From Linanthus parryae (Eukaryota; Streptophyta; Magnoliopsida; Ericales; Polemoniaceae), in the NCBI GenBank assembly GCA_023055425.1, contig JALGPY010000014.1:64501-128500 (forward strand): a stretch of DNA of 64,000 bases, in the 5' to 3' direction. This document shows, piece after piece, positions 41,248 through 62,700 of the stretch. The first letter of the stretch is position 1. Each line of letters opens with the position of its first letter. Below the pieces are notes generated by a model. That model did not search any database and was not told where the DNA came from. It saw only the letters and a program-made list of their open reading frames with translations. A program made the position numbers and the translations under genes.

Positions 41248-41260
41248 GTCTCCCACTTGC
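41248..41260 (-). promoter_or_regulatory. Copia polypurine tract
   Basis: On the element strand the sequence directly before the 3' LTR reads gcaagtgggagac, purine-rich and in the position where plus-strand DNA synthesis is primed. It sits immediately after the end of the RNase H frame. Confidence 0.85.
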
Positions 41261-41261
41261 A

Positions 41262-41762: not shown

Positions 41763-44700
41763 TCCTCAAATATCAAGAACACATCCTTAGTTCTTCTCAA
41801 GTACTTTAGGATGTTCTTGACAGCAATCCAGTGACTCTCACCCGGATTGGACTGATATCTGCTCACCATACTCAACGCGTATGATACGTCTGGTCTAGTA
41901 CATAGCATGGCGTACATGATGGATCCTATGGCCGAAGCATAGGGTATCCTACTCATGCGGTCCTTCTCCATCTCGTTGGAGGGACAGTCATTCTTGGAAA
42001 GAGTGACTCCATGTGACATGGGCAAGAATCCCTTCTCGGAATCTTGCATGTTGAACCTCTTCAACACCTTGTCAATATATGTACTCTGACTTAGGCCAAG
42101 CAACCTTTTAGATCTATCTCTATAGATCTTTATACCCAGTATATAGGCTGCGTCTCCTAAGTCTTTCATTGCAAAGCACTTTCCTAGCCAATCTTTAACA
42201 GATTGCAGAGTAGGAACATCATTGCCAATGATTAGTATGTCATCCACATACAAGACCAGAAACACTATAGAGCTCCCACTAACCTTCTTGTAAACACAAG
42301 GCTCATCTTCGTTCTTGATGAAGCCAAACTCTTTGACCGCGTCATCAAAACGTCGATTCCAGCTCCTAGAAGCTTGCTTTAATCCATAAATGGACCTTTG
42401 CAGCTTACAGACTTTATTGGCATTCTCTGGATCCTCAAAACCCTCTGGTTGTGTCATGTACACATCCTCAAGGAGGTTCCCATAAAGGAACGCTGTTTTG
42501 ACATCCATTTGCCAAATCTCATAGTCGTAGTATGCTGCAATAGCAAGTAAGATTCGAATGGATTTAGTCATGGCGACTGGTGAAAAGGTCTCATCATAGT
42601 CAATACCATGAATCTGTCTATAACCTTTGGCCACCAATCGCCCCTTATAGGCAACTACCTTGCCATCCATGTCGGTCTTCTTCTTGTAGACCCACTTGCA
42701 CCCTATAGGTCGAGCCCCTTCGGGTGGTTCCACCAAAGTCCATACTTTGTTGGTGTACATGGAATCCATTTCGGATCTCATGGCTTCCAGCCACTTCTTA
42801 GAATCTGGGCCATTCATGGCTTCTCCATAGTTTGCAGGCTCATCATCCATGAGTGGTACGTCATCGGGCTCAGTCACGAGAAGTCCATACCTCTCTGGCT
42901 CTTGACGCACTCTTCCTGATCTACGGAGTTCCTGTGTTACCTGAACAGGCTCTTCCACAACTTCTTGTGGTTCCTGTTCATGTTCCATTATTGGTTCAGT
43001 GGTTTGTGGTTCATGAATTTCTTCAAGTTCTACAACCCTCCCATTTGCTTCTTTAGAGACTAGTTCTCTTTCTAGAAACACGCCGGTCCGAGCAACAAAC
43101 ACTTTGTTCTCAGTAGGGTTATAGAAATAATATCCTTTAGTCTCTTTAGGATATCCCACAAACTTACACTTATCCGCTTTAGGCCCGAGCTTGTCTGTTT
43201 GTAAACGCTTTACATAGACGTCGCAGCCCCAAATCTTCATAAACGACACTATGGGACGCCTCCCAGTCCATATCTCATATGGCGTCTTCATGACTGATTT
43301 GGATGGAACACGGTTAATGGTAAAAGCTGCAGTCATTAGAGCATGTCCCCAAAAGGATATCGGAAGATCTGTTTGAGACATCATAGATCGCACCATATCT
43401 AATAGAGTGCGATTCCTCCTCTCAGATACACCATTCCATTGTGGTGTTCCGGGTGGAGTGAGTTGGGATACTATCCCACACTCTCTAAGATACTCATCAA
43501 ACTCTTGGCTTAAGTATTCTCCTCCACGATCCGATCGTAGGGCTTTAATACTCTTGCCAAGTTGCTTCTCTACTTCACTCTTGAATTCTTTGAACAATTC
43601 AAAGGATTCGGATTTGGCCTTCATAAGGTATACAAATCCATATCTACTGAAATCATCAGTAAATGTGATGAAGTAGGTATAACCACCTCTGGCAGGCGTG
43701 GGGAATGGTCCGCATACATCAGTATGTATGAGTGCCAATAACTCACTAGTCCGTTCGCCTTTCTTATTGAAAGGGGACTTTGTCATTTTTCCTAATAAAC
43801 AAGATTCACATGTCTCATATGATTCCAAATCAAATGAGTCTAGAAGTCCATCCTTATGGAGTCTAGATATGCGTTTCTCATTTATATGGCCTAAACGACA
43901 GTGCCATAGATATGTAGGATTTAAATCATTAGTTTTAATCCTTTTAGTATTTATGTTATAGATTGGATTATTTAGATCAAGGATATACAATCCATTAGAC
44001 AAATGCGCACTACAATAGTGCATACTATCAAAATAAATGGAGCAACACTTGTCCTTTATTGAAATAGAAAAACCTTTCTCGTCCAAACAAGAAACGGAAA
44101 TAATGTTTCTGCTCATAGCAGGCACATAAAAGCAATTGTCTAATTCTAAAATAAGTCCAGAAGGCAAAGATAGCTCATAAACGCCTACAGCTAATGCAGC
44201 AACCTTTGCTCCATTCCCGACGCGCAAGTCTATCTCCCCTTTTCGCAATCTTCTACTTCTTTTCAAATCCTGCACATTACGACAAATGTGAGAACCACAT
44301 CCGGTATCTAATACCCAGGATGATGAAATAGAAAGATTGACGTCTATAACATAAATACCTGGCGGTGGTGGAATCACTATTCCAAGCTTCTTATCCTCCA
44401 GATATTTAGGGCAATTCCTCCTCCAGTGACCCGGCTGGCTGCAGTAGTGACATTCACCTTTAGCCACGCCTCCACTAGGCTTTAGGGCATCCTTGGATTT
44501 CGCAACTTTCTTGCGTTTTCCTTTTGAAGTAGATGCAACTGACTTGCCCTTCTTCTTGTGGACCATCATTATGGCCTTGCCCTTGCCTTTATTGATGCTT
44601 TGCTCAGCTGTCTTAAGCATGTTCAATAGATCTGGCAAAGACTTGTTGATCTCATTCATATTATAGTTCATAATGAACTGATTATAACTGTCAGGCAACG

Positions 44701-45196
44701 ATTGCAAGACGAGATCAGTCGCCAAGTCCTGGCCGAGTGGGAACCCCAGTCTCTCAAGGTTCTCTATGTACCCGATCATTCGGAGTACATGAGGGCCTAC
44801 TGGATTCCCCTCTGCAAGACTACTTTTGAACAATGCTTTAGACACTTCATAGCGCTCATGCCTTGCCTGTTCCTGAAACAATTGTTTCAAGTGTCCGATC
44901 ATATCATAGGCTTCCATGTTCTCGTGTTGCTTCTGAAGCTCACCAGTCATGGTACAAAGCATGAGGCAAGTCACGTCATTAGAATCATCAATATGTTTCT
45001 GACGTGCCCTTACTTCCGCTAATAGAGACTCATCTTGTGGTGGGTCTGGAATTGGAGTGTCCAAGACGTACAGCTTCTTTTCTTGCATGAGGACAATCCT
45101 CAAGTTTCTGTACCAGTCAAGGAAATTTGTTCCAGACAATTTATCCTTCTCAAGGACAGATCGTAGGGATGAACTCGATGCGTTGTTGTTTGCCAT
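41750..45196 (-). CDS. Copia Gag-Pol polyprotein (Gag, protease, integrase, RT), truncated by frameshift
   Basis: Polyprotein of the copia element. The open frame reaches 45262, but I place the start at 45196 (MANNNASSSS), where Gag-like sequence begins. In numbering from 45262, a Gag domain spans about 35-225, and a CCHC zinc knuckle (CHYC...H...C) lies at 271-284. The aspartic protease has DTG at 319-321 (WVLDTGCGSH). The integrase zinc site is H454, H459, C485 and C488; its catalytic triad is D515, D578 and E614, with D and E 35 residues apart. RT shows QMDVKTAF (D920) and YVDD at 1005-1008. The product would package RNA, cut itself, copy RNA to DNA and integrate it. The frame ends early at 41750 with a foreign tail (EEWKS), so RNase H is lost from this product. 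Otherwise no stops or missing catalytic residues were seen, consistent with recent activity of the family. Confidence 0.92.
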   Translation of the reverse strand: MANNNASSSSLRSVLEKDKLSGTNFLDWYRNLRIVLMQEKKLYVLDTPIPDPPQDESLLAEVRARQKHIDDSNDVTCLMLCTMTGELQKQHENMEAYDMIGHLKQLFQEQARHERYEVSKALFKSSLAEGNPVGPHVLRMIGYIENLERLGFPLGQDLATDLVLQSLPDSYNQFIMNYNMNEINKSLPDLLNMLKTAEQSINKGKGKAIMMVHKKKGKSVASTSKGKRKKVAKSKDALKPSGGVAKGECHYCSQPGHWRRNCPKYLEDKKLGIVIPPPPGIYVIDVNLSISSSWVLDTGCGSHICRNVQDLKRSRRLRKGEIDLRVGNGAKVAALAVGVYELSLPSGLILELDNCFYVPAMSRNIISVSCLDEKGFSISIKDKCCSIYFDSMHYCSAHLSNGLYILDLNNPIYNINTKRIKTNDLNPTYLWHCRLGHINEKRISRLHKDGLLDSFDLESYETCESCLLGKMTKSPFNKKGERTSELLALIHTDVCGPFPTPARGGYTYFITFTDDFSRYGFVYLMKAKSESFELFKEFKSEVEKQLGKSIKALRSDRGGEYLSQEFDEYLRECGIVSQLTPPGTPQWNGVSERRNRTLLDMVRSMMSQTDLPISFWGHALMTAAFTINRVPSKSVMKTPYEIWTGRRPIVSFMKIWGCDVYVKRLQTDKLGPKADKCKFVGYPKETKGYYFYNPTENKVFVARTGVFLERELVSKEANGRVVELEEIHEPQTTEPIMEHEQEPQEVVEEPVQVTQELRRSGRVRQEPERYGLLVTEPDDVPLMDDEPANYGEAMNGPDSKKWLEAMRSEMDSMYTNKVWTLVEPPEGARPIGCKWVYKKKTDMDGKVVAYKGRLVAKGYRQIHGIDYDETFSPVAMTKSIRILLAIAAYYDYEIWQMDVKTAFLYGNLLEDVYMTQPEGFEDPENANKVCKLQRSIYGLKQASRSWNRRFDDAVKEFGFIKNEDEPCVYKKVSGSSIVFLVLYVDDILIIGNDVPTLQSVKDWLGKCFAMKDLGDAAYILGIKIYRDRSKRLLGLSQSTYIDKVLKRFNMQDSEKGFLPMSHGVTLSKNDCPSNEMEKDRMSRIPYASAIGSIMYAMLCTRPDVSYALSMVSRYQSNPGESHWIAVKNILKYLRRTKDVFLIFEEWKS

Positions 45197-46791
45197 TTGG
45201 AATTCTACAAAACGAGAAATATGCAATTTTAGTATTTTGAACAATTTGACTATATTTAACAATGGCTAGATCATCAAATATAGCTCCCACTATTTTTCTC
45301 GGATTAATAGCCCTCACCATTAAAGCGGAAAATATCTTTATACTTTCTAGTGGGTCCAAGATCCTTATTTCACTTCTCCTTGAGCTTGCTTTGGCAAGTC
45401 ACCCAAGAATTGGTTATTTAGGTAGGAATCATTCCAATTGCATCCCATGCAACTCTTGGTCCAATTAGGTGAATAAATTCCTTTTATTCTTTATCCAATT
45501 GGATAACTCCTAATTGTCATGCCTCTAAGCTCATCAATCCAATTGATTCTTGCCTAGTTGCGTCCAACCTCTTGTTTTCAACATACACGCATTACTAGCT
45601 TGCGTCGTCCGCAACACATCATGAAAAATTAAAATCGCCTTGCTTTGGCAAGCCCGAATTTTAATAGGCCATGATCATGAAGGGTGTTTTGGCAAGAGAA
45701 GGCAAAACGCAATATTTAATTGAGGGATTTCTTTTAATTTGTTTGGTTGATCTTTATCAACATGGTCTACTTATTTGGATTGGGCTATCCACAATAAAAG
45801 ACCAACCTTGTTTATTATTATCTTGTTATCGTTTTGCTTGTAGCGCCATACACACAAAATAAATAACAAGGCATGAATAATAAACATCCACAAAAATAAA
45901 AAAAACGTGGCATGGATATGGCCTCTAGACTAATGATATTATCAAGCCAATGATAATATCTAATTGCCCTAAAGTGCCGAGCTCATCTCCATGTGCTCCA
46001 CCATAGCTGCGCGCCTAGGGATGTCTTTTGGCTCCTTTGGTTCTCCGGTCTTCTTCTCCATGTTCTTGGCTATCATCTAAATATTTCTAATTCTAGCCTA
46101 ACATCTAGAATAAATAAATAACAAAAGCCTCACATGTCGAGGAGAAAAAGAACGACTCGCATGCCGTAAAACTTAATTAATTATTACATTAATTTGATCA
46201 GCTCGCAGGCCGTAAACCAAACCACAAAACAATAAACATCCACAATCCTAGGCCATATCCATCCACCATGCAATAAAGCACATAATACAGTTAAAACCAA
46301 TTTTAACGCGCTTGTTTAATTTTAATGAAATTGGGTAACTAGGGTTTCACAACGGTCCAAAGGGTCCAAGCCAACAAGTGGCCCGAACCCTAGGACCGCC
46401 GCACGCCTAAGGGGGCCGCGGCCTTGCTTGGCGCGCACGGGAGGGGCGGGCGGCTAGGGTTTCGGCCCTAGTCCCCTTCCTCCTTCCTTGTTGCCCAATC
46501 AAGGTTGTTTCCTTATGGAATTATTTCCATAATTTTGTTTCCATAATTGAAAACCCCTTTTCAATCATGTGCCCATGAACCCTAATTTTTCAAGAACCCA
46601 ATTATTCACATCCTATGTGATTAAACTCACCAATTCTAATATCCAATGTTAAATTGGGTCTTGTTTGATTGAATCAAATTCAATATTGCATCTACTATGC
46701 CAATTTTTCAGTTTTCGCGTAATAAACAATAATACGGTGTATGAACTGAAATCGTAAACACATAATATCATGTTATGCTCTACGAACTGTG
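45197..46791 (-). other. Copia untranslated leader between PBS and gag
   Basis: About 1.6 kb with no convincing coding sequence. Such a long leader is known for BARE-1-like elements. It contains an 18-base inverted repeat at 46454-46471 that also occurs in both LTRs. GC-rich sequence near 46390-46450 contrasts with its AT-rich surroundings. Small open frames on either strand show no domain. Confidence 0.7.
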
Positions 46792-46803
46792 GCTCTGATA
46801 CCG
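46792..46803 (-). promoter_or_regulatory. Copia primer binding site (tRNA-iMet)
   Basis: On the element strand the bases one nucleotide inside the 5' LTR read CGGTATCAGAGC, one mismatch from the common plant PBS TGGTATCAGAGC, which pairs with the 3' end of initiator tRNA-Met. This fixes the right LTR as the 5' LTR and the minus strand as sense. Confidence 0.88.
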
Positions 46804-46804
46804 C

Positions 46805-48240
46805 TGTTGGGTTTTGACGTAGGTAACGCAGCAGAATAACAAAAATTAATCCTACTCAAAGCCCACCAAGGATCACAGGAAGAGACATCATAACATGATT
46901 AAGGACATAGAAGATGTGTACCTTTTGATTTGTGAGATCACACGAAGAATGATGTCCTCGTCTCTACGGTTGATCCACGTCTAGAGGTGAGATCTAGATT
47001 CTTCCTTCAATCAAGTGCTAGCTTGAACCTTGGAGGAAGAGGGATGAAGACCAAAGCAACGAATCACCAAAAGCACAAGAGAGGGGCGGCCTCTCTTTGC
47101 CGTCGGGTAGGGGGCGGACGGGTGGCTAGGGTTTCGGCCCTAGCTACTTGTCTTGCTCTCTCTTTTGCTCTCTCCCACTCTTTGTGTGTTATGACTAATA
47201 ACTCATGTGTGGGAAGGAAGCTAGAGCCTCCTTTATATACTCCAACAACTCCTTGTTGTTTCCATAAAAGAGTTTTCTTGTTCTAGTAGGACTAGAACTA
47301 TTCCCTTCCTTGCAAATTAGTCCTACTAAGTTTGCAAGGTGTTGCACAATGATCCTTCTATTAATTAATCCATATTAATTAATCCCAAATCTAGCTCTAC
47401 TCTATTTGACGTGTGACCCCATAGGTTTCTATATAGTTGGTAGTAACTATTACTAACATGGAGCGGTGTCTAGCAACACATCCATGCAACCCAACCAATA
47501 GAAATAGTCAGTGATCCCAACAAACCTTTGTGCCCAATATGTCATATTGCATTATCCCTTTGTCTCCATATCCGGATTGGACACGAGACATAAATAGTCA
47601 CACTCGTATATCCAATCCATAGTTCCTCGATCCTGGGAATATGCTTATACTTGCAGATAACATTAATATCTCCATATTAATTTATCTGAGTCTGGCCAGA
47701 CATTCAATAAGCCTCATCCCTCGAGTGGCCGTGGATATTTACCCCCATTATGTGGGAGGGACAAATCCTATCTACATCACTACGATCTCTAAGCTTGCTT
47801 CCTATCACGCCCGATAGCCACTTTTATGATTACCCAGTTACGGTGTAACGTTTGATAACATCAAAGCGCAATATTTCACAACTAGAGTATCTAGTGACTT
47901 CAAGTCCAAGGATTGCAATAATATTAGCACTACGAAAAGCGATTGTGACTTTACATAATATAATGTATCCTTTTCGTCGTGGGTCAATCCAGTATGCCAT
48001 TACTCCTAATGCATACCCATGTGTTAGACTTGATATCTCCATATCAATCTACCCACATACTAGTCTATATTTGATTGTCCTATTAATCAATATAATGGAC
48101 TAGGGACATTTAAGATAAATAACACAATTTATCTAAGGACTTCATTATATTAAATATCGCCATAAATAATAAATGAATATTCTAGCCAAAACATTGTTCA
48201 TACTAAATCTACGATTGCCTCTAGGGCATCTATTCCAACA
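46805..48240 (-). repeat. Copia 5' LTR
   Basis: 1436 bp, TGTTGG...CCAACA ends, partner of 39812-41247. Should hold the promoter, and a good TATA motif is present at 47231-47239. The transcribed part downstream of TATA would be about 400 bp to the PBS side. Confidence 0.95.
47231..47239 (-). promoter_or_regulatory. TATA box of copia 5' LTR
   Basis: On the element strand the sequence is ggagTATATAAAGgagg, a strong match to the plant TATA consensus, followed by sequence that loses AT-richness. It predicts a transcript start near 47200-47210. The same motif is at 40238-40246 in the other LTR. Function is inferred from motif and position. Confidence 0.7.
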
Positions 48241-48250
48241 TGATCATCAC
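48241..48250. repeat. Ten-base satellite remnant between two retrotransposons
   Basis: TGATCATCAC. Its first five bases are the right TSD of the copia element and its last five (ATCAC) are the left TSD of the gypsy element. No other satellite sequence separates them. Confidence 0.93.
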
Positions 48251-48546
48251 TGAAATACCCCGTTTTGTGACTACGGGTATTTTGTGATATTATTATAAGT
48301 GTTGAGAAGTTAAAGTAATTATAGAGAGTTAATTATAATGCTTTGAGAGTTTGGGGGGAACTTTGTGACTTTAATCAATGGTTTTAGTGTCTTTTACTTG
48401 AGTTGGGGGAGGTGTTTGTCTCTTGGCAAAACTAAGGGGAAATAAGTGTCTTTTGACCTAAATTTCTTCCTACAATAAAAGTTTCCTAATCCAAGAGGGT
48501 TTCCTACTTATGAAGTTAATTTTAATTCTAACTCTCATAAAAACCC

Positions 48547-48835
48547 TCACTCTCCTATTTTTCCTAATCTCTCTCACTCTCCCTCATCCTCTACCCGTCC
48601 CTCTCTCACTCTCTCTCCCTTGTGACCGACGGCAGCCACCCCACCGCCGCCGCTCTCTTTCTCTCTCTCTTGCGTTGAGGTAATTCTCTCTCTCTCTCTC
48701 TCTTTTTCTCTTTTCTTTCTTTATTTTCTCTTTTCTCTCTTTCTTTCTCCCTATCCCCGTCCGCCTCTCTCTCCGTCCGCCTCCATGGGCGGCGGGTTGA
48801 GCGGGTTGGGTTGTTTTGTCTCTTTTTCTCTTTTC
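48547..48835 (+). promoter_or_regulatory. CT-rich tract in gypsy LTR, candidate core promoter/leader
   Basis: Strongly pyrimidine-rich on the plus strand, with a (CT)n run at 48686-48703, and a repeated copy at 57803-58091. Plant promoters often have pyrimidine patches around the transcript start. No convincing TATA box was found upstream, so the start site is unknown. The tract could also be just low-complexity sequence. Confidence 0.4.
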
Positions 48836-49530
48836 TTTTGTTGATCTCTTGATCTTGTGATCACTTGTTCATGATTCATGTATGTTGCATGCAATCTCTA
48901 AATTTCAGTTTGTTATGGTTAGGATCATTGTTCATGGATTCGTAAGATTGATAATCAAGTTTTAGGGTTTATCATGTTCTTGAGTGTTGGGAAGAAACCC
49001 TAGTTTGAAAGGGAAGTTTGATTGAATGATTTGGGAGTTTGAATGATCATATTAGGTGGATAACAATCTGATTTGAATGTGGGAATCATGTTATATTAGG
49101 TTTAGTATGATTATAGGATGAATTAGATGTTTGGGGGAAAAGTTTCATGAAGATTGACAATTCCCGTATGGATATTTTGAATGAAGTTGGAAACTTGAAA
49201 CTAGTGTAACTTTTGATTCAGGAATCGAAATTAAGATCCGTTTGAGGCTAAACTTATTATTTCGAATGTTTTGAATCCAATGGAACTGTTTCTAGACCAT
49301 GATCTGTTTGGGAAACTGGAGTAATAGAATTGGTGGAGTTATGATGGATTATGCATACTTTAGGATAAGGGTTTTTGAGGCAAAGCTTTAAGCTTATTTT
49401 GGAGCATGAATTGAATGGGATGTTGGGGAAGTGTTAGAACCCTAAACCATGGACTATCATATGCATGTAATTAGTATAGCAAGTATATATTGCTAGAATA
49501 TTGGTTTGATTAGCATATTGTTATGTGTAG

Positions 49531-49600
49531 GTAACGAGTTCGTCGACGACGAGTACGTAGAGTACGTTGATTGATTTCTATTGTTGGAATTTGCTTTGAG
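49531..49600 (+). other. Candidate short LTR exon with flanking splice signals
   Basis: A 70-base segment lies between an acceptor-like end (gttatgtgtag, 49530) and a strong donor (gctttgag followed by gtaagt at 49601). A matching acceptor for that donor (ttctttccgcaccacag) ends at 50247. Another donor-like site is at 48680 (gttgag then gtaatt), with an acceptor-like aatttcag ending at 48908. These signals suggest the leader could be spliced. This rests on motifs only. Confidence 0.3.
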
Positions 49601-50540
49601 GTAAGTAAATGTGCCAAGCCTAGTGTGCTTATCTCTTTCGTGTCAAACGAATATTTGATTTATTACGTCTCAAAATGTGTTTACATGATACATGACTTGG
49701 AATATGTGATTTCTACTTGTTAAATGTTTTTGACGAAAACATCACCATGATAATGAATGAACTAATACGTAAAGTGGAAGATGTTGTGCGGGACGTTATT
49801 ATTCTTTGGGCGGTGTTGGCTGCGGTCCCGTCTCTTTTTAATCCGGTTGCAAGTCCCCGGACAATAACATGTACTCACTCCTCTGACCGGCGTAGTCTTT
49901 GGGGGGTGTCGACACTTAAGGTCATGCACGCTGTAGTATTTGGTTTTCCCCGTCACAACAAAGTAATAATGGATTTGTTTGGTTTTGTTAACGGAACGAA
50001 GTTAACACTGGATTTGGATTTTCCTAATAATATGGAAATTGATTTGGAAATATATTATGGAATTGGGAACTCTTATGTTTTGAAACAAGAGTCACATTAT
50101 TACCGCTGTGTTTGCGAAAAACTCTTACTTGCAAATGAGTCTTGTTTTATAACTATCCATCATCGTTTTACATGTTTGGATGTTTGCTTACCAGTATTTC
50201 AATGCTGATTTTGTACTGTGGTGTTTCTTTTTCTTTCCGCACCACAGGTTTAGAAGAAGGTTATCGGGCATAGAAGGGGACGCGCACCACATGGATTATT
50301 AATAGTAGTATTACATTTCAATTTGAACTCTCTAGTAGTTTAAACGCTTTAGTTGTTTTTGCCGGTTTGTGGCTAGGACGAAGGTTTACGATAATACATT
50401 ATTTTAATTGGATTTAATTTATTATTGTGGATGTGTGTGCTTGCGAACCATGTTATAAAATCTCCTTGTATCCGGGCTCCTCTCGGGTACGGAGTGACAT
50501 CCCCGGGTCTCCGGCTTGGGCCATTTGGGGGTGTTACAGG

Positions 50541-50552
50541 TGGTATCAGAGC
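50541..50552 (+). promoter_or_regulatory. Gypsy primer binding site (tRNA-iMet)
   Basis: TGGTATCAGAGC, a perfect match to the common plant PBS for initiator tRNA-Met, two bases after the 5' LTR end. Confidence 0.93.
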
Positions 50553-50912
50553 CGGCATTCTAAAAAGAAATTTGAAACTTGTTAGGGCAACTAAAATGAA
50601 TATAGGAGAAAATAACTTAAAATTTGACAAGCCGTGGGAATTTGGGTAGTATGGATAGGATTGTTATGTGTAAGTGTTTAGAAAATAGGATAGAAAGCAA
50701 GTGCCCCATCCACCCATTCGAATATTTGGAGTATTCTGATTGGAAATCTAAGTTAGGCCTACTTTAAGAGACTTCATTGGGAGATTTCTTCAAGAGTCTT
50801 GGAGCCATCGATTTGGAGTCTTGGGAATAATTATTGGTCTGCGAAGAGTAGTTATTTGGATTACGGTTTATGCCTTTAAATTAGAGACTTATTAAGTTGT
50901 TTCCTCTTGTAG

Positions 50913-51542
50913 ATGGCTAGAACTAAGCATACAGCAAGGAAGCGTGTGTTGCCAGTAGAGAAGCATCCTGTTGTGACACGTTGGGTTGAAGGTGAAGATT
51001 TTCCAGATTTTCGTGACCGCGTGGTTCAATATTGTGAAGATAGATTCCGAGCCTTAGAATTCCCTCGATATAGAAATCCAGCTTTTCAGGCTTACTGCAT
51101 GGTGAAGGCATTACCTATGAAACCGATGTTTGGGGATATTATTACAAAATATAGCAACATCATGGGCAGGATGAATCGTTTGAATGATAGGGATTATCGT
51201 TGCCAAGGTGAATGGACGGTAAGTGCAGATTTTATATGCAAGTTATTGATGGAGACTTACCTTAAGTGGCAAAGTTATACAGTTATTGAGATAAAGTCCA
51301 GTGATGAAGAAGACGTGATCTACATAAGCTCTAGTGATGAAAAAGAAGTGATTATTATAGATTCTAGTGACGATGAAGAAGTTGAAGAAGATCCAATGGA
51401 AGATGTTGATGAATACCCCAAGATTGAAGAAGATCCCATGGAATATGAAGAAAGTGAAGAAGACCCTAGTGAAGATGAAGAGCACGAGTATGATTCCGAT
51501 GAAGAGGAAGAGATGGACGAAAGCGATGAGGACGACGATTAA
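50913..51542 (+). CDS. Extra retrotransposon ORF: H3-tail-like N-terminus, SIM-like repeats, acidic tail
   Basis: A 209-codon sense ORF between PBS and gag; I do not recognise the family. The N-terminus MARTKHTARK equals the start of histone H3 except H for Q at residue 6 (counting Met), and then diverges (R for S, then VLP). Residues 12-120 form a mixed, moderately basic region with many aromatic residues and no motif I know. Residues 124-156 hold three similar units spaced 11 residues apart: VIEI plus SSDEED, VIYI plus SSSDE, VIII plus DSSDDEE. These resemble SUMO-interacting motifs followed by CK2-type serine sites. Residues 157-209 are almost all acidic with EEDP repeated three times. The ATG directly follows a splice-acceptor-like ttgtttcctcttgtag, so it may be made from a spliced RNA. 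A role in chromatin contact is inference. It could also be a captured host fragment or non-functional. Confidence 0.62.
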   Translation: MARTKHTARKRVLPVEKHPVVTRWVEGEDFPDFRDRVVQYCEDRFRALEFPRYRNPAFQAYCMVKALPMKPMFGDIITKYSNIMGRMNRLNDRDYRCQGEWTVSADFICKLLMETYLKWQSYTVIEIKSSDEEDVIYISSSDEKEVIIIDSSDDEEVEEDPMEDVDEYPKIEEDPMEYEESEEDPSEDEEHEYDSDEEEEMDESDEDDD

Positions 51543-52564
51543 GCTTATTAGAGTTCTTTAGATTTCTTAGACTAGATGCTTTAAGCTTTATTTATTGGTT
51601 TGAATAAGGCTCCATAGCCAAGCAACATTTGAAGTTTTAGAACGATTCTTGAATAGTCACTTTTGGGCTAGAGTTAAATTCTTAGCGTTTTGCTTTGGGA
51701 CGAAGAATGTTTTCGTTTTGAAGACCCGATTTGGGAAGTTTTATAAACTTAGTTTTCTGAATTTTGGAGTATGATTGGATGAATTAAGGTTGTGTTATGC
51801 TTGCAATCATTAATTATGGGCTTAGAAAGTGTTCATGGAGTTAGAACGCGAAAACTTTGATTTTTGGTGCTGTTGAATCTGCGCAGCAGTGAGTTTTCGA
51901 TGTAGCAGACGTATTTAACTTTGGAGTTATTTTTCCCTGAATTTTTCCCAGAAAGTAGACATACCCAGGTATCTCCCATAAAAATTTCAACCCCATACGA
52001 GTTCTGGAGAATTAGCTACGAATTTCTAAAGTTGACGGTTCAGTAGCAGAATTGCAAAGTGACTAGCTGTAGCATCTTCGATTGTTACCTAACTTCCAGA
52101 TCTTGTTTTGACCCCAAATTTTTATGGCGACTACTAGACACGTTTGGCTAACTTCCAGAGAAAGCCTAGCTCATTTTGAGAATTTTAAAGTCAATTTAAG
52201 TCTTTTCAAAGTCGATGTTTCTGTTCTGGTGGGCTGTGACAGCAACTGTAGAGTTTCCTTTACATCTTGAGTTCTACAATTGATTTTGAGTTGATTCTTC
52301 TTGATTATGAAAGTAAACTCAGAGAGGGTGTTGCACACCAAAATTTGCAATTTTTGCTTGATCGATTGATCCTCTTTCCAATTTTGGAAGTAGATGAAAA
52401 GTTGAGACGTGATCAGTCTATGTGGAAATACATGAGTAATTGAGTTAAATGATGGTCAATGTGTGACATTACTTGCTTAATTGTGCACTACATGTCATAT
52501 ATGCGTGATTGTTTGTACTTCTTGGTACTTTATAAGTAATACAATAGGCTATAGTGTAGGGATT
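51543..52564 (+). other. Non-coding spacer between extra ORF and gag
   Basis: About 1 kb with no meaningful open frame on either strand and no recognised motif. Sequence is AT-rich with scattered short CAGCAG/TAGCAG-like words near 51885-52090. It may be leader sequence or an intron of the gag message. I see nothing else in it. Confidence 0.5.
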
Positions 52565-52672
52565 ATGACTGATAGACCACATCAATACCACACCAGTAGG
52601 AATAGTCAAGTCCCTACGGCAACCAACAACAACAACAACGACTTGGACCAATTCTTTGCCAAATTAGCGTAG
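52565..52672 (+). pseudogene. In-frame Gag N-terminal extension closed by TAG
   Basis: A 35-codon stretch opening with MTDRPHQYH and containing an Asn-rich run lies in the same frame as gag. It ends with TAG at 52670-52672, directly before the gag ATG at 52673. The lack of other stops between 52481 and 52670 and the seamless junction suggest the original Gag began here and was cut by a nonsense change. Alternatively it is a short upstream ORF that lowers or controls Gag translation. Confidence 0.5.
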
Positions 52673-55600
52673 ATGGCTCAGAATATGAACAATGGAGAAC
52701 AGAGTGCAACTAGTGGTGCCAAGAAAGTGGCCGACATGAAGCCAGGGAACTTCATTGGCAATGAGGACCCTGTTGAGCTCGAGAATTGGATCGATGAGAT
52801 GGATAAGATCCTTGAGCTAGTTGAGTGTCCCGAAGACCGCAAGGTAGTTTGCGCGGCATTTTACTTGAAGAACGAAGCTAATACATGGTGGAGGAGTACG
52901 CGCCAGAACTTTTTGGCGCAACCCAATTTCAATTGGGAGGCTCTTCAAACCGCACTTCGCACTCGCTTTTACCCGGACCATGTCCAGGATCAAAAGTACT
53001 TAGACTTCGTGAATCTGACACAAGGAAACGGTTCCGTGACCGAGTACTTCAAGAAATTCATGGAATTATCCCGATTCGCAGGTCAGCTGATGCCTGATGA
53101 AGCGACTAAAGTCAGGAAGTTCATGTCTGGTCTCGAACTTCATCTGCAGAAAGACTTGATGTGCAGGACGTACGATACTCTCCAGGAAGCTTATGATAGG
53201 GCGGCAGCCGTTTGGCGTATTCAAGAGGCACAAGACGAGAAGCGTGGGAAACGCAAGGTCGAGAACGCCGTGGGCTATGGAAACAATCAGAATAGGACTA
53301 ACCAAGGTAGTCAGGACAAAAGGTTTAAGCCTAACCACGGAGGAAGTAACCAAGGACAGTATCGTGGTAACAAGCAGAATAATGGAGATGAGCAATCTCG
53401 CCGTTATATCTGCAAGAAGTGCCAACAGAATCATCCAGGAAAGGACTGTCAAGGAAACCTTGTCACTTGCTACCACTGTGGCAAGAAGGGTCATCGTTCG
53501 TTTGAGTGTCGATCAAAACCAAATGGAAACCAACTAGGGAACCAAGGAGGCAATTACCAAGGAAACCGACAGTTCAACAACAACAATCAGGGCGGAAACC
53601 GGAACTATGGAAACTACAACAACAATAATGGAGGCAACAATTATGGTAGACAACAAGTGAATAATCAAGGCAATGGAAGGAACAATGGAGTTCAGAACGG
53701 GAATAGGAACAACAACACTCCAACTAACGCCAACAACAATGGGACTGGTACGACGGGAACTACCGCACAAAATGGGAATATTGCAAGGATCGCTGTCATG
53801 AGCAGGACCGAAGCGGAAGCAGCAAACGGAGTAGTCACTGGTACATTTCTCGTTCATGATCAACCAGCTTTTACTTTATTTGATTCCGGAGCTTCGTATT
53901 CGTTTATTTCGTCATCGTTTGTGGAAAAATTGAGTCTCAATAAGCCGTCTAGAATATCCATCCCCGTAGCTACCCCAACCGGTCATGTAACAGTATGTGA
54001 CGCCATTTTTGAAGGAGTAGAAGTTAAGATTTCGGCTAGTACCCTACCAGCGAACCTGATACAGTTTGATCTTGGAGGGATAGATGTTATATTGGGAATG
54101 GATTGGCTGGGAAAATATCGTGCAGTAATAGACTGCCACGATCAGAAGATAAGGCTTAAAGGTCCAAAAGGAGAAAAAGTTTCTTACCGTGGTATCACCA
54201 AAGAACCATGTATCCGACTAGTGTCAGCTTTGACCATAGTCAACCAAGTGAAGAAGGGAAATAGTGCTTATTTGTGCTATATTCAAGACACATCTAAGAA
54301 GGAGAATGTGCTAGAAGAAATACCAATCGTTAGAGATTTTCCCGATGTGTTTCCGGACGAAATTCCAGGAATGCCACCTAGAAGAGAGATCGAATTCACT
54401 ATGGATCTAACACCTGGAACAGCTCCAATTTCAAAGGCACCGTACAGAATGGCACCAGTAGAGTTGAAAGAACTTAAGGATCAGCTGCAAGAGTTACTCC
54501 AAAAGGGTTATATAAGACCGAGTGTTTCCCCTTGGGGCGCACCGGTACTGTTTGTGAAGAAGAAAGATGGAAGCTTGAGATTGTGCATTGACTATAGGGA
54601 GTTGAATAGCGCAACAATCAAGAACAAATACCCTTTACCCCGAATTGACGATTTGTTTGATCAATTACAAGGGGCGAGTGTTTTCTCAAAGATAGACTTG
54701 AGATCAGGGTATCACCAGCTTCGAGTAGCCGAGAAGGACATACCGAAGACAGCCTTTAGGACGAGGTATGGACACTACGAGTTTACCGTTATGCCTTTTG
54801 GTCTGACCAATGCTCCAGCAGTATTTATGGATCTAATGAATCGTGTTATGAGAACGTTTCTAGATCGTTTCGTGGTCGTCTTTATTGATGACATCCTTGT
54901 TTATTCAAAGAGCGAGGAAGAACACGAAGAACACCTCAAAGAAGTGTTAGAAACTTTGAGACATGAGAAGTTATATGCTAAACTCTCGAAGTGTGAATTT
55001 TGGCTAAAACACGTTCCATTTTTGGGTCACATAATCTCCAAGGAAGGAATATCCGTGGATCCAGGAAAGATTTCAGCAGTTAAAGATTGGCCTACTCCGA
55101 AGAATGTGTCCGAAGTAAGAAGTTTTCTCGGATTAGCAGGATATTACAGACGTTTCGTGAAAGATTTCTCGAAGATCGCTAGACCGCTTACTACACTAAC
55201 CAAGAAGACGGTAAGGTATAAGTGGAGCGAAGATTGTGAAGAAGCATTCCAGACATTGAAGGAAAAGTTAACGACCGCACCTGTCTTAGCTTTACCCAAT
55301 GATTCTGGCGAATTTGATGTTTACAGTGATGCATCGAAGAAGGGCTTAGGATGTGTGCTTATGCAAGAAAGAAGAGTTATTGCTTATGCTTCAAGACAAC
55401 TGAAAACTCATGAAGAGAACTATGCTACGCATGACTTAGAGCTTGCAGCTATAGTATTTGCATTAAAGATATGGAGACATCACTTGTATGGATCGGTGTG
55501 TAGATTGTATACGGATCATAGCAGTCTCAAATACATTTTCACACAGAAAGAGCTAAACAACAGGCAAAGACGTTGGTTAGAAGTCATAAAGGATTATGAT

Positions 55601-55759
55601 TTGCGTATCCAATACCATGAAGGGAAGGCAAACGTAGTAGCTGATGCGTTAAGCCGAAAGTCGAGCCATACTTTGGATACTATGCTAGTTTTACCAGATC
55701 GGCTATGCCGAGAGTTCCGAAAACTTGGAATTGAAGTGGTAAAACAAGGAGAAGTATAG
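52673..55759 (+). CDS. Gypsy Gag-protease-RT-RNase H polyprotein (first part of Gag-Pol)
   Basis: 1028 residues. Gag (retrotransposon gag family) spans about 25-190, with conserved-looking WW at 72-73. Two zinc knuckles follow: an irregular C247-C250-H254-C259 with one residue missing in the spacing, and a normal CCHC at 266-279. Residues 283-370 are an Asn/Gly-rich linker. The protease has FDSG at 403-406. RT runs about 580-765, with D675 in [10 protein letters not shown] and FIDD at 737-740. RNase H follows, with D886, E923, D948 and D991. The product would form particles and make cDNA. Translation stops at TAG 55757-55759, in frame with the integrase part that follows 15 bases later. Start is the first ATG after the TAG at 52670. 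All catalytic residues I looked for are present. Confidence 0.93.
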
Positions 55760-55774
55760 AATATTCTTGGGAAT

Positions 55775-57229
55775 ATGACAGTTGTGCCAGATGTCTTAGA
55801 AGAGATAACGAGTAACCAGCCAGGAGATGTGAAGCTGGAAAGGATAAAGAAGAAGATTGCAGAAGGCCAAACAAAAGATTTCAAGATCCATGAAGATGGA
55901 AGTATTCGTTACAAAGGAAGATGGTGTGTACCACATAAGTGTACGGAAACTAAGGAGAAGTTGATGCGAGAAGCGCACAACACACCCTACTCAGTACATC
56001 CAGGAGGTGACAAACTTTATAAGGACATGAAGAAGATGTTTTGGTGGCCTAACATGAAGAAAGAAGTGGCAGAATTTGTGGCAAAATGTCTAACTTGTCA
56101 AAAGGTAAAGTTTGAACATAAAAGAATGGGAGGCTTAGTACAACCATTAGATGTCCCAGTTTGGAAGTGGGATTCTATTTCGATGGATTTCGTGACTGCG
56201 TTACCGACATCAAAGAATGGACTGAATCAGATCTGGGTCGTAGTTGACAGATTGACCAAGACAGCAAGGTTTATCCCGATGAAAGACACATGGAATATGG
56301 AACAAAGAGCTGATGCGTATATGAAGAACATTGTAAGGTATCATGGAGTACCAAGCTCTATAGTTTCCGACAGAGATCCCAACTTTCTTTCTCACTTCTG
56401 GAAAGCACTTCAGGAGGCACTAGGAACTCAATTGAAGTTTAGCACGGCATTTCACCCGGCTACAGATGGACAAACCGAAAGAACAATTCAAACGTTGGAA
56501 GATATGCTAAGATCGTGTGTTATGGATTTTCAAGGTTCATGGGTTGATAGATTACCTTTGATAGAATTCTCCTACAACAACAGCTATCATGCCAGTATTG
56601 GAATGGCACCACATGAAGCGTTGTATGGAAGGAAGTGTAGAACACCGTTGTGTTGGAACGACATAAGTGAAACGATAGTAATTGGTCCACAACTTATTGA
56701 AGAGATGACAGATCAAGTGAGACTTATACAGCAGCGAATGAAGGCAGCGCAGGATAGACAGAAATCTTACGCTGATCAGAAAAGAAGACCGTTGGAATTT
56801 CAAGTTGGAGAAAAAGCATTTCTTAAAGTATCACCAACTAAAGAAGTCATGAGGTTCAATCAGAAAGGGAAGTTGAGCCCGAAATTCATAGGACCATATG
56901 ATGTTATAGAAAAGATTGGAGAAGTAGCTTATCGACTGGATTTACCATCGAATTTAGGGCGTGTTCATAACGTATTTCACGTATCGCAACTGAAGAAGTA
57001 TGTGCCTGACGCATCTCATGTATTAGATCTCGAACCAGTAGAACTGGACCCGTCTTTGAGTTATGAAGAACAACCTGTCAAGATTTTAGACACCAAGACA
57101 AGGAACACCCGTAATAAGAGTGTCAAGATTGTAAAAGTCTTATGGACTAACCACCTCACGGAAGAGGCAACTTGGGAAGCAAAAGATGATATGAGGAAGA
57201 AGTACCTCGTCAAACAGTTATTTGTCTAA
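55775..57229 (+). CDS. Gypsy integrase with GPY module and chromodomain (second part of Gag-Pol)
   Basis: 484 residues, in the same reading frame as the upstream part and separated only by one TAG plus four codons. The zinc-binding site has H68, H75, C105 and C108. The catalytic core has D138, D199 and E235, with D and E 35 residues apart. A GPY/F-type module lies at 366-377 (KLSPKFIGPYDV). Residues about 434-484 resemble the group II chromodomain of Tekay-type chromoviruses (VKILDTK, VLWTNH, ATWE). In this family the integrase inserts cDNA and the chromodomain is thought to steer it to chromatin, often heterochromatin. The Met at 55775 is probably not an authentic start; the domain would normally be released from the full polyprotein. 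Expression here needs TAG readthrough, re-initiation or help from another copy. Confidence 0.9.
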   Translation: MTVVPDVLEEITSNQPGDVKLERIKKKIAEGQTKDFKIHEDGSIRYKGRWCVPHKCTETKEKLMREAHNTPYSVHPGGDKLYKDMKKMFWWPNMKKEVAEFVAKCLTCQKVKFEHKRMGGLVQPLDVPVWKWDSISMDFVTALPTSKNGLNQIWVVVDRLTKTARFIPMKDTWNMEQRADAYMKNIVRYHGVPSSIVSDRDPNFLSHFWKALQEALGTQLKFSTAFHPATDGQTERTIQTLEDMLRSCVMDFQGSWVDRLPLIEFSYNNSYHASIGMAPHEALYGRKCRTPLCWNDISETIVIGPQLIEEMTDQVRLIQQRMKAAQDRQKSYADQKRRPLEFQVGEKAFLKVSPTKEVMRFNQKGKLSPKFIGPYDVIEKIGEVAYRLDLPSNLGRVHNVFHVSQLKKYVPDASHVLDLEPVELDPSLSYEEQPVKILDTKTRNTRNKSVKIVKVLWTNHLTEEATWEAKDDMRKKYLVKQLFV

Positions 57230-57506
57230 GGGGTACCTTGAGTTCTGAGGTACCTTGAGTTACGAGGACGTCACTCCTCTAAGGGGGAGAGGATGTAATC
57301 CTTCGTTTTTCTTTAATACAATACTACTTATAGTATACTGCATATCATTCATGACCTTAGGTTGCATTTAGTAGTCGTACTAGTGAGGGAAGGTGTATAC
57401 CTTTGTGTGGTTAAAGTTTTGCTTAAACTTCAAGGATAGTTTCTCTTTTAGGAGGGAGGTTTTTGTTTAAACTTCGAGGACGAAGTTCTCTTTAAGGAGG
57501 GAAGGA
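57230..57506 (+). promoter_or_regulatory. Gypsy 3' untranslated region with three PPT-like tracts
   Basis: Polypurine tracts occur at about 57278-57291 (aagggggagagga, then tgtaat), about 57450-57460 (ttaggagggagg) and 57494-57506 (aaggagggaagga). Only the last abuts the 3' LTR and is the working PPT candidate. The stretch around the second (ttaaacttcaaggat) and third (ttaaacttcgaggac) tracts looks like a local duplication. ggtaccttgagtt also occurs twice near 57233-57262. Confidence 0.75.
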
Positions 57507-59794
57507 TGAAATACCCCGTTTTGTGACTACGGGTATTTTGTGATATTATTATAAGTGTTGAGAAGTTAAAGTAATTATAGAGAGTTAATTATAATGCTTT
57601 GAGAGTTTGGGGGGAACTTTGTGACTTTAATCAATGGTTTTAGTGTCTTTTACTTGAGTTGGGGGAGGTGTTTGTCTCTTGGCAAAACTAAGGGGAAATA
57701 AGTGTCTTTTGACCTAAATTTCTTCCTACAATAAAAGTTTCCTAATCCAAGAGGGTTTCCTACTTATGAAGTTAATTTTAATTCTAACTCTCATAAAAAC
57801 CCTCACTCTCCTATTTTTCCTAATCTCTCTCACTCTCCCTCATCCTCTACCCGTCCCTCTCTCACTCTCTCTCCCTTGTGACCGACGGCAGCCACCCCAC
57901 CGCCGCCGCTCTCTTTCTCTCTCTCTTGCGTTGAGGTAATTCTCTCTCTCTCTCTCTCTTTTTCTCTTTTCTTTCTTTATTTTCTCTTTTCTCTCTTTCT
58001 TTCTCCCTATCCCCGTCCGCCTCTCTCTCCGTCCGCCTCCATGGGCGGCGGGTTGAGCGGGTTGGGTTGTTTTGTCTCTTTTTCTCTTTTCTTTTGTTGA
58101 TCTCTTGATCTTGTGATCACTTGTTCATGATTCATGTATGTTGCATGCAATCTCTAAATTTCAGTTTGTTATGGTTAGGATCATTGTTCATGGATTCGTA
58201 AGATTGATAATCAAGTTTTAGGGTTTATCATGTTCTTGAGTGTTGGGAAGAAACCCTAGTTTGAAAGGGAAGTTTGATTGAATGATTTGGGAGTTTGAAT
58301 GATCATATTAGGTGGATAACAATCTGATTTGAATGTGGGAATCATGTTATATTAGGTTTAGTATGATTATAGGATGAATTAGATGTTTGGGGGAAAAGTT
58401 TCATGAAGATTGACAATTCCCGTATGGATATTTTGAATGAAGTTGGAAACTTGAAACTAGTGTAACTTTTGATTCAGGAATCGAAATTAAGATCCGTTTG
58501 AGGCTAAACTTATTATTTCGAATGTTTTGAATCCAATGGAACTGTTTCTAGACCATGATCTGTTTGGGAAACTGGAGTAATAGAATTGGTGGAGTTATGA
58601 TGGATTATGCATACTTTAGGATAAGGGTTTTTGAGGCAAAGCTTTAAGCTTATTTTGGAGCATGAATTGAATGGGATGTTGGGGAAGTGTTAGAACCCTA
58701 AACCATGGACTATCATATGCATGTAATTAGTATAGCAAGTATATATTGCTAGAATATTGGTTTGATTAGCATATTGTTATGTGTAGGTAACGAGTTCGTC
58801 GACGACGAGTACGTAGAGTACGTTGATTGATTTCTATTGTTGGAATTTGCTTTGAGGTAAGTAAATGTGCCAAGCCTAGTGTGCTTATCTCTTTCGTGTC
58901 AAACGAATATTTGATTTATTACGTCTCAAAATGTGTTTACATGATACATGACTTGGAATATGTGATTTCTACTTGTTAAATGTTTTTGACGAAAACATCA
59001 CCATGATAATGAATGAACTAATACGTAAAGTGGAAGATGTTGTGCGGGACGTTATTATTCTTTGGGCGGTGTTGGCTGCGGTCCCGTCTCTTTTTAATCC
59101 GGTTGCAAGTCCCCGGACAATAACATGTACTCACTCCTCTGACCGGCGTAGTCTTTGGGGGGTGTCGACACTTAAGGTCATGCACGCTGTAGTATTTGGT
59201 TTTCCCCGTCACAACAAAGTAATAATGGATTTGTTTGGTTTTGTTAACGGAACGAAGTTAACACTGGATTTGGATTTTCCTAATAATATGGAAATTGATT
59301 TGGAAATATATTATGGAATTGGGAACTCTTATGTTTTGAAACAAGAGTCACATTATTACCGCTGTGTTTGCGAAAAACTCTTACTTGCAAATGAGTCTTG
59401 TTTTATAACTATCCATCATCGTTTTACATGTTTGGATGTTTGCTTACCAGTATTTCAATGCTGATTTTGTACTGTGGTGTTTCTTTTTCTTTCCGCACCA
59501 CAGGTTTAGAAGAAGGTTATCGGGCATAGAAGGGGACGCGCACCACATGGATTATTAATAGTAGTATTACATTTCAATTTGAACTCTCTAGTAGTTTAAA
59601 CGCTTTAGTTGTTTTTGCCGGTTTGTGGCTAGGACGAAGGTTTACGATAATACATTATTTTAATTGGATTTAATTTATTATTGTGGATGTGTGTGCTTGC
59701 GAACCATGTTATAAAATCTCCTTGTATCCGGGCTCCTCTCGGGTACGGAGTGACATCCCCGGGTCTCCGGCTTGGGCCATTTGGGGGTGTTACA
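57507..59794 (+). repeat. Gypsy 3' LTR
   Basis: 2288 bp copy of 48251-50538, starting TGAAATACC directly after the PPT and ending TGTTACA directly before the TSD ATCAC. No base difference from the 5' LTR was noticed by eye. Confidence 0.95.
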
Positions 59795-62700
59795 ATCACC
59801 CCAAACTCAAAAATCACCAAATACTCTAATCCCATATCATCATTTAAACCCTATATAGAAATCTAAAACACTGAATTGGACCCCCAACCCTCAAACCCTT
59901 CACCCTTTTGAGAATTCAAATCACTCAAAACAAGATTTCGAAGCATTTTTAGCACCTTCTTCTAATATCTAAATTTTACAAAAACGAGTGAATCTTTACC
60001 TAATATTTTAGACTGACAATCAAACTATAGGATCACGAAAAAAGTTTCAACTAAAAACCTTCCTTGATTGCCAAAAACCTCCACAAAATACTCATAAATT
60101 GTCCCGAAACCAGGATTTATCATTAAAAATCATACCCTAATCATCACCCCAAACTCAAAAAACACCAAATCCTCTAATCCCATATCATCATTTAAACCCT
60201 ATATAGAAATCTAAAACACTGAATTGGACCCCCAACCCTCAAACCCTTCACCCTTTTGAGAATTCAAATCACTCAAAACAAGATTTCGAAGCATTTTGAG
60301 CACCTTTTTCTAATATCTAAATGTTACAAAAAACGAGTGAATCTTTACCTAATATTGTAGACTGACAATCAAACTATAGGATCACGAAAAAAGTTTCAAC
60401 TAAAAACCTTCTTTGGCCTGCGTAAAACCTCCTCAAAATACCCATAAAATGTCCCGAAATCATGATTAATCTTTAACAATCATACCCTGATCATCCCCCA
60501 AAATCAAAAAACACCAAATCCTCTAATCCTAGAACCTCAATTAAACCCTAAATAGAAATCTAAAACACAAAGTTGGACCCCCGACCCTCAAACCCCTAAC
60601 CCTTTTAAGAAATGAAATCACGCAAAACAAGATTTCTAAGCATTTTGAGCACCTTTTTCTAATATCTAAATGTAACAAAATCTGAGTGAATTTTTACCTA
60701 ATATTGTAGACTGACAATCAAACTATAGGATCACGAAAAAAGTTACAACTAAAAACCTTCTTTGACTGCCAAAAACCTCCTCAAAATACCCATAAATTGT
60801 CCCGAAACCAGGATTTATCATTAAAAATCATACCCTGATCATCAGCCCAAACTCAAAAAACACCAAATCCTCTAATCCCATATCATCATTTAAACCCTAT
60901 ATAGAAATCTAAAACACTGAATTGGACCCCCAACCCTCAAACCCTTCACCCTTTTGAAAATTCAAATCACTCAAAACAAGATTTCGAAGCATTTTGAGCA
61001 CCTTTTTCTAGTATCTAAATGTTAAAAATCTTTACCTAATATTGTAGACTGACAATCAAACTATAGGATCACGAAAAAAGTTTCAACTAAAAACCTTCTT
61101 TGGCCTGCGTAAAACCTCCTCAAAATACCCATAAAATGTCCCGAAATCATGATTAATCTTTAACAATCATACCCTGATCATCCCCCAAAATCAAAAAACA
61201 CCAAATCCTCTAATCCTAGAACCTCAATTAAACCCTAAATAGAAATCTAAAACACAAAGTTGGACCCCCGACCCTCAAACCCCTAACCCTTTTAAGAAAT
61301 GAAATCACGCAAAACAAGATTTCTAAGCATTTTGAGCACCTTTTTCTAATATCTAAATGTAACAAAATCTGAGTGAATTTTTACCTAATATTGTAGACTG
61401 ACAATCAAACTATAGGATCACGAAAAAAGTTACAACTAAAAACCTTCTTTGACTGCCAAAAACCTCCTCAAAATACCCATAAATTGTCCCGAAACCAGGA
61501 TTTATCATTAAAAATCATACCCTGATCATCAGCCCAAACTCAAAAAACACCAAATCCTCTAATCCCATATCATCATTTAAACCCTATATAGAAATCTAAA
61601 ACACTGAATTGGACCCCCAACCCTCAAACCCTTCACCCTTTTGAAAATTCAAATCACTCAAAACAAGATTTCGAAGCATTTTGAGCACCTTTTTCTAGTA
61701 TCTAAATGTTAAAAATCTTTACCTAATATTGTAGACTGACAATCAAACTATAGGATCACGAAAACAGTTACAACTGAAAACCTTCTTTGGCCTGCCAAAC
61801 ACCTCCTCAAAATACCCATAAAATGTCCCGAAATCATGATTTATGATTAAAAATTAGGCCCTGATCATCCCCCACACTCAAAAAACACCAAATCCTCTAA
61901 TCTTAGAACCTCAATTAAACCCCAAATAGAAATCAAAAACACTACGTTGGACCCCCGACCCTCAAACCCTTCACCCTTTTGAGAAATAAAATCACTCAAA
62001 ACAAGATTTCGAAGCATTTTGAGCACCTTTTTCTAATATCTAAATGTTACAAAAACGAGTGAATCTTTGCCTAATATTGTAACTCACAATCAAACTATAA
62101 GATCACCAAAAAAGTTACAACTAAAAACCTTCTTTGGCCTGCCAAAAACCTCCTCAAAATACCCAAAAAATGTCCCGAAATAACGTTTTATCATTAAAAA
62201 TCATACACTGATCATCACCCCAAACTGAAAAAACACCAAATTCTATAATCATAGAACCTCAATTCAACCCTAAATAGAAATCTAAAACACTAAGTTGGAC
62301 CCCCCGACCCTCAAACCCCTCACCCTTTTGAGAAATAAAATCACTCAAAACAAGATTTTGAAGCGTTTTTAGCACCTTTTTCTAATTTATAAATGTTTCA
62401 AAACGAGTGAATTTTAACCTAATATTGTAGACTTGCAATAAAACTGTTGTACCACGAAAATATAATCAACCAAAACCTTCTTTGGCCTGCTAAAAACCAC
62501 CCCAAAGTACCCATAAAATATCCCGAAACCATGATTGATCATTAAAAATCGTACCCTGATCATCACCCCAAACTCAGTAAACACCAAATCCCCTAATCCC
62601 ATATCCTCCATTAAACCCTAAATACAAATCTAAAACACTTAATTGGACCCCCAACCCTCAAACCCTTCACCCTTTTTGAGAAATCAAATCACTCAAAACA

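Follow-up and report, generated by a model that had tools for sequence, protein, structure and literature searches.

Some of the extra ORFs that lie 5′ of gag in chromoviruses are reportedly similar in part to the histone H3 gene, a likeness that Steinbauerova et al. (Genetica 139:1543) are said to have described in 2011 for Poaceae only. This earlier report lowers the novelty of an H3-like extra ORF. Extra 5′ ORFs are already known in Tekay elements, according to the passages covered of PMC11728184, and extra ORFs in general are treated in the part covered of PMC6317226. The functions of plant retrotransposon extra ORFs are given as mostly unknown in the excerpts covered of two sources (PMC7264820; PMC11728184). 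H3 similarity of such ORFs is not mentioned in the parts covered of PMC7264820, and the word "histone" is absent from the main text on the sunflower Tekay 5′aORF (PMC11728184). Our literature search, judged on titles, abstract openings and passages, returned no recognisable description of a retrotransposon ORF that is CENH3-like or bears SUMO-interacting motifs (SIMs).

The extra ORF and its host element

We analyzed a 64,000-nucleotide stretch of the Linanthus parryae genome (the window), in which a gypsy element carries a sense ORF between its 5′ LTR and gag that is common to the members of its family, as in a 5′aORF (Table 1). The encoded protein begins MARTKHTARKRVLPVEK.... An earlier note on this DNA had likened its first ten residues, MARTKHTARK, to the MARTKQTARK of histone H3, and had pointed to an Arg instead of Ser after Lys9. 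Checked against the 20 best-scoring H3 loci of the genome, which all begin MARTKQTARKS, nine of the ten residues are indeed equal, and the Arg is read in the translation. The identical ten N-terminal residues are found in the histone H3 of PDB 7d69 (E 3.2; only the exact string counts), which we take to be from Giardia. A match of at least 8 of the 9 residues after Met has a chance of about 9 x 0.05^8, or about 4e-10, per N-terminus, as obtained by hand arithmetic with equal residue frequencies and no correction for the number of eye-catching motifs.

Table 1. Features of the gypsy element and its extra ORF; positions refer to the window.
Feature	Position	Strand	Remarks
Target-site duplicate ATCAC, 5 bp	48246-48250 and 59795-59799		Flanks the outer LTR edges
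5′ LTR, TG...CA	48251..50538	+	Compared with 57507-59794
Primer binding site TGGTATCAGAGC	50541..50552	+	Adjoins the 5′ LTR; sequence read
Candidate leader intron	50670..50912	+	GTAAGT donor at 50670, TTTCCTCTTGTAG acceptor directly before the ATG
Extra ORF (5′aORF), 209 aa	50913..51542	+	ATG 50913, stop 51540-51542; between 5′ LTR/primer binding site and gag
H3/CENH3-like N-terminus MARTKHTARKR, codons 1-11	50913..50945	+	H3/CENH3 loci of the genome; copies
Three tandem 11-residue SIM-like units, residues 124-156	51282..51380	+	Shuffling test; pN/pS
Acidic tail, residues 157-209	51381..51539	+	Charge
gag-pol frame (gag, CCHC, protease, RT, RNase H, integrase, chromodomain)	52565..57229	+	Pfam; translation
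Chromodomain, Tekay-like (RNTRNK, EEATWEAK)	57077..57211	+	Integrase C-terminus; PF00385 17.6 bits, cut-off 25.1
3′ LTR	57507..59794	+	Compared with the 5′ LTR

Beyond the tail, the same note had seen no captured piece of an H3 gene, and our comparison agrees: by eye, H3 similarity is absent past residue 11, and Pfam gave no PF00125 (histone fold) match to the ORF at E up to 1. Capture of an H3 gene beyond the tail was rejected on the by-eye comparison. As a query against protein databases, the whole ORF drew 1255 candidates, not one of which reached E 0.001; residues 1-125 drew two, neither of them at E 10. Residues 1-125 gave 1 and 31 pattern matches in viral and prokaryote genomes, respectively, none of them confirmed, and nothing informative came from Pfam and PDB searches with the ORF. 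By these sequence searches, two of whose collections were viral or prokaryotic, no homologue was found outside the Linanthus parryae genome. A single-sequence AlphaFold model, of low confidence (mean pLDDT 44), places four helices between residues 30 and 118 and contains three strands.

The C-terminal part holds an exact tandem of three units (VIEIKSSDEED, VIYISSSDEKE, VIIIDSSDDEE), in each of which Ser and acidic residues come after a hydrophobic core. Neither this array nor the length of the acidic tail had been remarked on in the earlier note. SIMs have such a hydrophobic core with an acidic/Ser flank; they are short, and false predictions are frequent. When residues 120-209 were shuffled, 1 of 20,000 shuffles had three SIM-like motifs, by a rule formulated only after the sequence had been seen. 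A PDB search with the array returned no SUMO-binding protein, its only match being an antitoxin (E 0.056). The net charge of residues 124-209 is -44.

The two LTRs of the element match at 2288 of 2288 positions. Because they are identical and ATCAC stands on both sides, we regard the insertion at 48251-59794 as young. Its primer binding site presumably fits initiator tRNA-Met. The gag-pol frame of the window copy is interrupted by in-frame TAG codons at 52670-52672 and 55757-55759, and since the LTRs are nevertheless identical, either the copy was moved by proteins acting in trans or the damage is very recent. In gag-pol, Pfam recognised gag, CCHC, protease, RT, RNase H, parts of the integrase and a weak chromodomain, the scores of the integrase core (28.8 bits, cut-off 32.6) and of Chromo (Table 1) both lying below their cut-offs.

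Each gypsy LTR contains a 153-aa ORF (49747-50208 and 59003-59464) that has no Pfam match. Tandem copies of a 348-bp satellite fill the window at about 1-39800 and 59800-64000 and show higher-order periodicity, with recurrent spacings of 3483, 6870, 8005 and 12872 bp. This satellite may be centromeric or subtelomeric, and it carries both the gypsy and a copia-type element. The latter lies on the minus strand at about 39800-48250, with pol ORFs at 41262-41762 and 41750-45196; its LTR pair has about 25 differing positions (edges approximate), and one LTR ends beside the gypsy insertion. From the start of the window to the contig end is a distance of 64.5 kb.

Copies, selection and the leader

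Searched with the protein, the genome yielded 6663 first candidates; the 150 that were scored are 95-100% identical, and six have a stop. Since this list favours conserved proteins, copies were chosen by their leader instead, with the non-coding leader (50545-50900) as query, and 40 of 1832 candidates, window included, were scored. By a comparison of coordinates by eye, 39 of these 40 recur in the list of 150 ORF matches, and 38 of the 39 are stop-free. The sequences of the 22 best-ranked of the 39 places outside the window were extracted, one as ORF only. Their frame is full-length and stop-free in 20, open with a one-codon deletion in another, and disrupted in the last. We calculated pN/pS from pooled pairs for 21 sequences, that is, these 20 copies and the window, leaving out the indel copies L094 and L109; the pairs are not independent, and no significance is attached to the values.

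Our results showed an overall pN/pS of 0.15 for the extra ORF in the leader-selected sequences, at a pS of 0.045 and a leader distance of 0.0278 (20 leaders). By part, the ratio was 0.05 for residues 12-30, 0.17 for residues 31-123, 0.03 for the SIM block and 0.33 for the acidic tail, which is the least constrained part. The three SIM-like units are found in 21 of the 22 leader-selected copies and in 45 of 47 selected by protein. These 47 copies and the window (48 sequences), a set biased towards low pN and used for support only, gave an overall pN/pS of 0.10. The extra ORF is therefore repeated and under purifying selection. Two outcomes that would have refuted the reading in the earlier note, related elements without the ORF or with an unconserved N-terminus, did not occur among the copies of one family in one genome. 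The four small ATGs that precede the ORF in its leader would suit a frame that is untranslated or without a role, but a pN/pS of 0.15, together with 20 of 22 full-length, stop-free frames and a 21st that stays open despite its lost codon, makes such a reading highly improbable.

The N-terminus is conserved. MARTKHTARKR is intact in 21 of the 22 leader-selected copies, and in the 21 sequences of the pN/pS set codons 1-11 have a pS of 0 and a pN of 0.0037, the latter owed to a single replacement of Ala by Thr at residue 8 in L103. We also combined the copies into a set of 68, comprising 67 in-frame copies and the window, with 2 of 69 left out for indels; 47 of the 67 were chosen by protein score, and two places are counted twice (L056/L105 and L052/L108). 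In this set MARTKHTARKRV (MARTKHTARKR) is read in 66 of 68 sequences, and codons 1-11 hold two synonymous and two non-synonymous variants, a total of 4 compared to 7-16 in the other 18 blocks and the fewest of all 19. Within this family, as far as its copies in this genome show, the N-terminus is thus the least variable block of the extra ORF. It might still be a mere basic leader or nuclear signal whose likeness to H3 is coincidental, the work of the protein being done by the helical region and the acidic SIM-like tail. Residues 1-11 are basic, and for another Tekay 5′aORF a nuclear signal has been predicted according to the part covered of PMC11728184. Yet exchanges between Lys and Arg should be tolerated in such a signal, while this block varies least, and by our hand arithmetic so long a match right at the start would very improbably be a coincidence; we consider this reading unlikely.

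The interpretation in the earlier note is supported in part. Counting against it, the synonymous sites of codons 1-11 are almost as invariant as the protein block, with a pS of 0.011 against 0.08-0.14 elsewhere in the protein-selected set. Of the 68 copies having a leader, 57 retain the donor TGTAAGTG of the candidate leader intron and 67 the acceptor TTGTAG. Splicing of 50670-50912 is a candidate event that would drop the ATG at 50870 and cut the uORFs starting at 50651 and 50666. The frozen synonymous sites and the conserved TTTCCTCTTGTAG hint at constraint at the nucleotide level, for example on a splice acceptor, and part of the conservation of codons 1-11 may lie at the RNA or DNA level. 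Because of this hint, the argument from N-terminal conservation is weakened, not removed.

The same frozen sites and the near-constant TTGTAG would also be expected if codons 1-11 descended from the 5′ end of a captured H3 or CENH3 gene and were retained for the context of start codon and splice acceptor, not for mimicry. Each of the nearest 5 of the 20 H3 loci differs from the ORF at 5 of 30 bases, in every case a third position, and has the same two Arg codons. However, random synonymous codons give at most 5 mismatches with a probability of 0.08, and past residue 11 the H3 similarity seen by eye ends, so that we hold a captured remnant of this kind to be distinctly improbable. As to its origin, the N-terminus may reflect either capture of an H3 start or convergence.

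Three older copies, at about 86-89% identity, begin MARTKHPTRKR (L072), MARTKHPARKH (L087) and MARTKQTARKR (L111). The search patterns that retrieved them called for an altered codon 7 or 6, so these copies are no measure of N-terminal constraint. All three are decayed by a stop or frameshift, and none has three SIM-like units by the rule. L072 differs from the window at 28 non-synonymous and 20 synonymous positions (pN/pS about 0.3), and both of its changes in codons 1-11 are non-synonymous, as found with a pattern requiring a change at codon 7. Older copies can be expected to decay once inserted, which tells little about selection in the active lineage. A genome search for MARTKQTARKR returned one place, an older copy carrying a stop.

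H3 and CENH3 as models, and the chromodomain

The earlier note had taken H3 as the model of the N-terminus. Nine of ten residues support this, but His6 is the state of plant CENH3, so the model is better given as H3/CENH3 than as H3 alone. Over residues 1-11 without gaps, the extra ORF equals H3 at 9 and the host CENH3 at 7 of 11 positions. The CENH3 gene of the genome (C35:190434877) begins MARTKHVASAKRKR (MARTKHVASAKRKRRGRPAS), and further exons read FRPGTVALREIR..., VREISNF... and AAEEYMIQLF.... It contains LLIPAAPFIR, at whose site grass CENH3 has LIPFAPF. MARTKH is the CENH3 start in every species of one alignment in the part covered of PMC9842635, and maize CENH3 begins MARTKHQAVRK in the passage covered of PMC4814585. 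Poplar CENH3 begins MARTKHPVARKRARS (MARTKHPVARKRARSPKRSD), as given in an excerpt of PMC11288735; it has MARTKH in common with the extra ORF and, given one gap, ARKR too. Unlike in plant CENH3, no histone fold follows the tail of the extra ORF.

We searched the 1.51 Gb genome with a degenerate pattern for MARTKH followed by a codon that does not start with A. This gave 18 places, compared to 2 with the reversed pattern as control. Translated, the 18 comprise one CENH3 (L077), two older element copies (L072 and L087), four short MARTKH frames (L071, L081-L083) and 11 MASTKH frames. A short repeated frame starting MASTKHPSLQL occupies 9 of the 18 places, on three contigs (L073-L076, L078-L080, L085, L086). 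Of the 20 best-scoring H3 loci, 12 cluster within about 1 Mb of one contig (C1:187722744-188735999).

The gag-pol order, a chromodomain at the integrase C-terminus (with a weak Chromo match) and the motif RNTRNK mark the gypsy element as a Tekay-like chromovirus, as the earlier note had proposed. The Tekay chromodomain motifs are (K/R)-X-(L/T)-R-X-(k/r) and EEXTWEXE in the part covered of PMC3350952. By eye, RNTRNK fits the first, and EEATWEAK has five of the six fixed residues of the second, its last being K. According to the same part of PMC3350952, group II chromodomains, the Tekay type included, lack the first and usually also the third cage residue. The chromodomain of the window element retains one of three cage positions, compared by eye with HP1. 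Since the Tekay type has no full set of cage residues, reading of the mimic tail by the element's own chromodomain, as suggested in the earlier note, appears less likely, but the real partner of such chromodomains is called unknown in the part covered of PMC6317226. We set this reading aside as the main idea because the cage residues are missing by eye.

The missing cage residues would also fit a targeting tether, in which the H3/CENH3-like N-terminus, together with the SIM array, directs the integration complex to heterochromatin or to a centromeric satellite and so complements the cage-poor chromodomain. The CENH3-type His in the N-terminus points the same way, as does the position of the window copy, a single insertion site, beside the 348-bp satellite with its higher-order periodicity. 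However, the centromeric nature of that satellite is itself a possibility, the 150 scored copies are spread over many contigs and, by eye, do not appear to cluster, and a mimic would be a rival of nucleosomes in the binding of readers, not a ligand of nucleosomes. A tether of this kind seems improbable to us.

Proposed function and known systems

The histone-like start and the SIM-like repeats suggest a tool for handling host chromatin. Our preferred reading, put forward tentatively from the sequence features described above and somewhat short of an even chance, is that the extra ORF encodes a nuclear accessory protein, a bivalent chromatin decoy or adaptor against silencing. We infer that the ORF is expressed, that its product is nuclear and that Met is removed, as expected where Ala follows, which would leave a free A-R-T-K-H-T-A-R-K-R end copying the first residues of H3/CENH3. 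This N-terminus would occupy readers or writers of the H3 N-terminus, such as PHD-type readers and H3K9 or H3K4 methyltransferases; Arg in place of Ser10 may weaken binding by H3K9 enzymes or readers. Together with a putative helical middle region, the three SIM-like motifs and the acidic tail would serve to bind chromatin proteins that carry SUMO, and the array could hold SUMO-dependent silencing complexes. The element would thereby gain transient relief from silencing. A stronger version, in which a bivalent protein imitates H3 as well as CENH3, reads SUMO by its tail and is dedicated to blocking or redirecting the heterochromatin or centromere machinery of the host, is rather doubtful.

The decoy or adaptor reading offers a concrete and cheaply testable hypothesis of how chromoviruses meet plant heterochromatin. 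It also bears on the chromatin contact of elements whose chromodomain is without a full methyl-lysine cage.

The ORFs reportedly described by Steinbauerova et al. in 2011 share with the one in Linanthus parryae the position 5′ of gag and the likeness to H3; theirs are from Poaceae, whereas the host here is a eudicot, as the LLIPAAPFIR of its CENH3 and the common AGA and AGG codons of its H3 genes also suggest. The 5′aORF of sunflower Tekay group 2 (Kazancev et al. 2024, PMC11728184) belongs to the same clade, has the same position, is predicted to be nuclear and is present in 500 of 523 elements, by the passages covered; it is proline-rich and encodes 402 aa, compared to 209 aa here. Short H3-tail motifs in a parasite protein, as here, are described in the part covered of PMC10208167 for influenza NS1 (ARSK) and SARS-CoV-2 ORF8 (ARKS), and we count them as a precedent in favour of the decoy reading. 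These viral mimics span four residues, in NS1 at the C-terminus, whereas the plant retrotransposon ORF carries ten at its true N-terminus.
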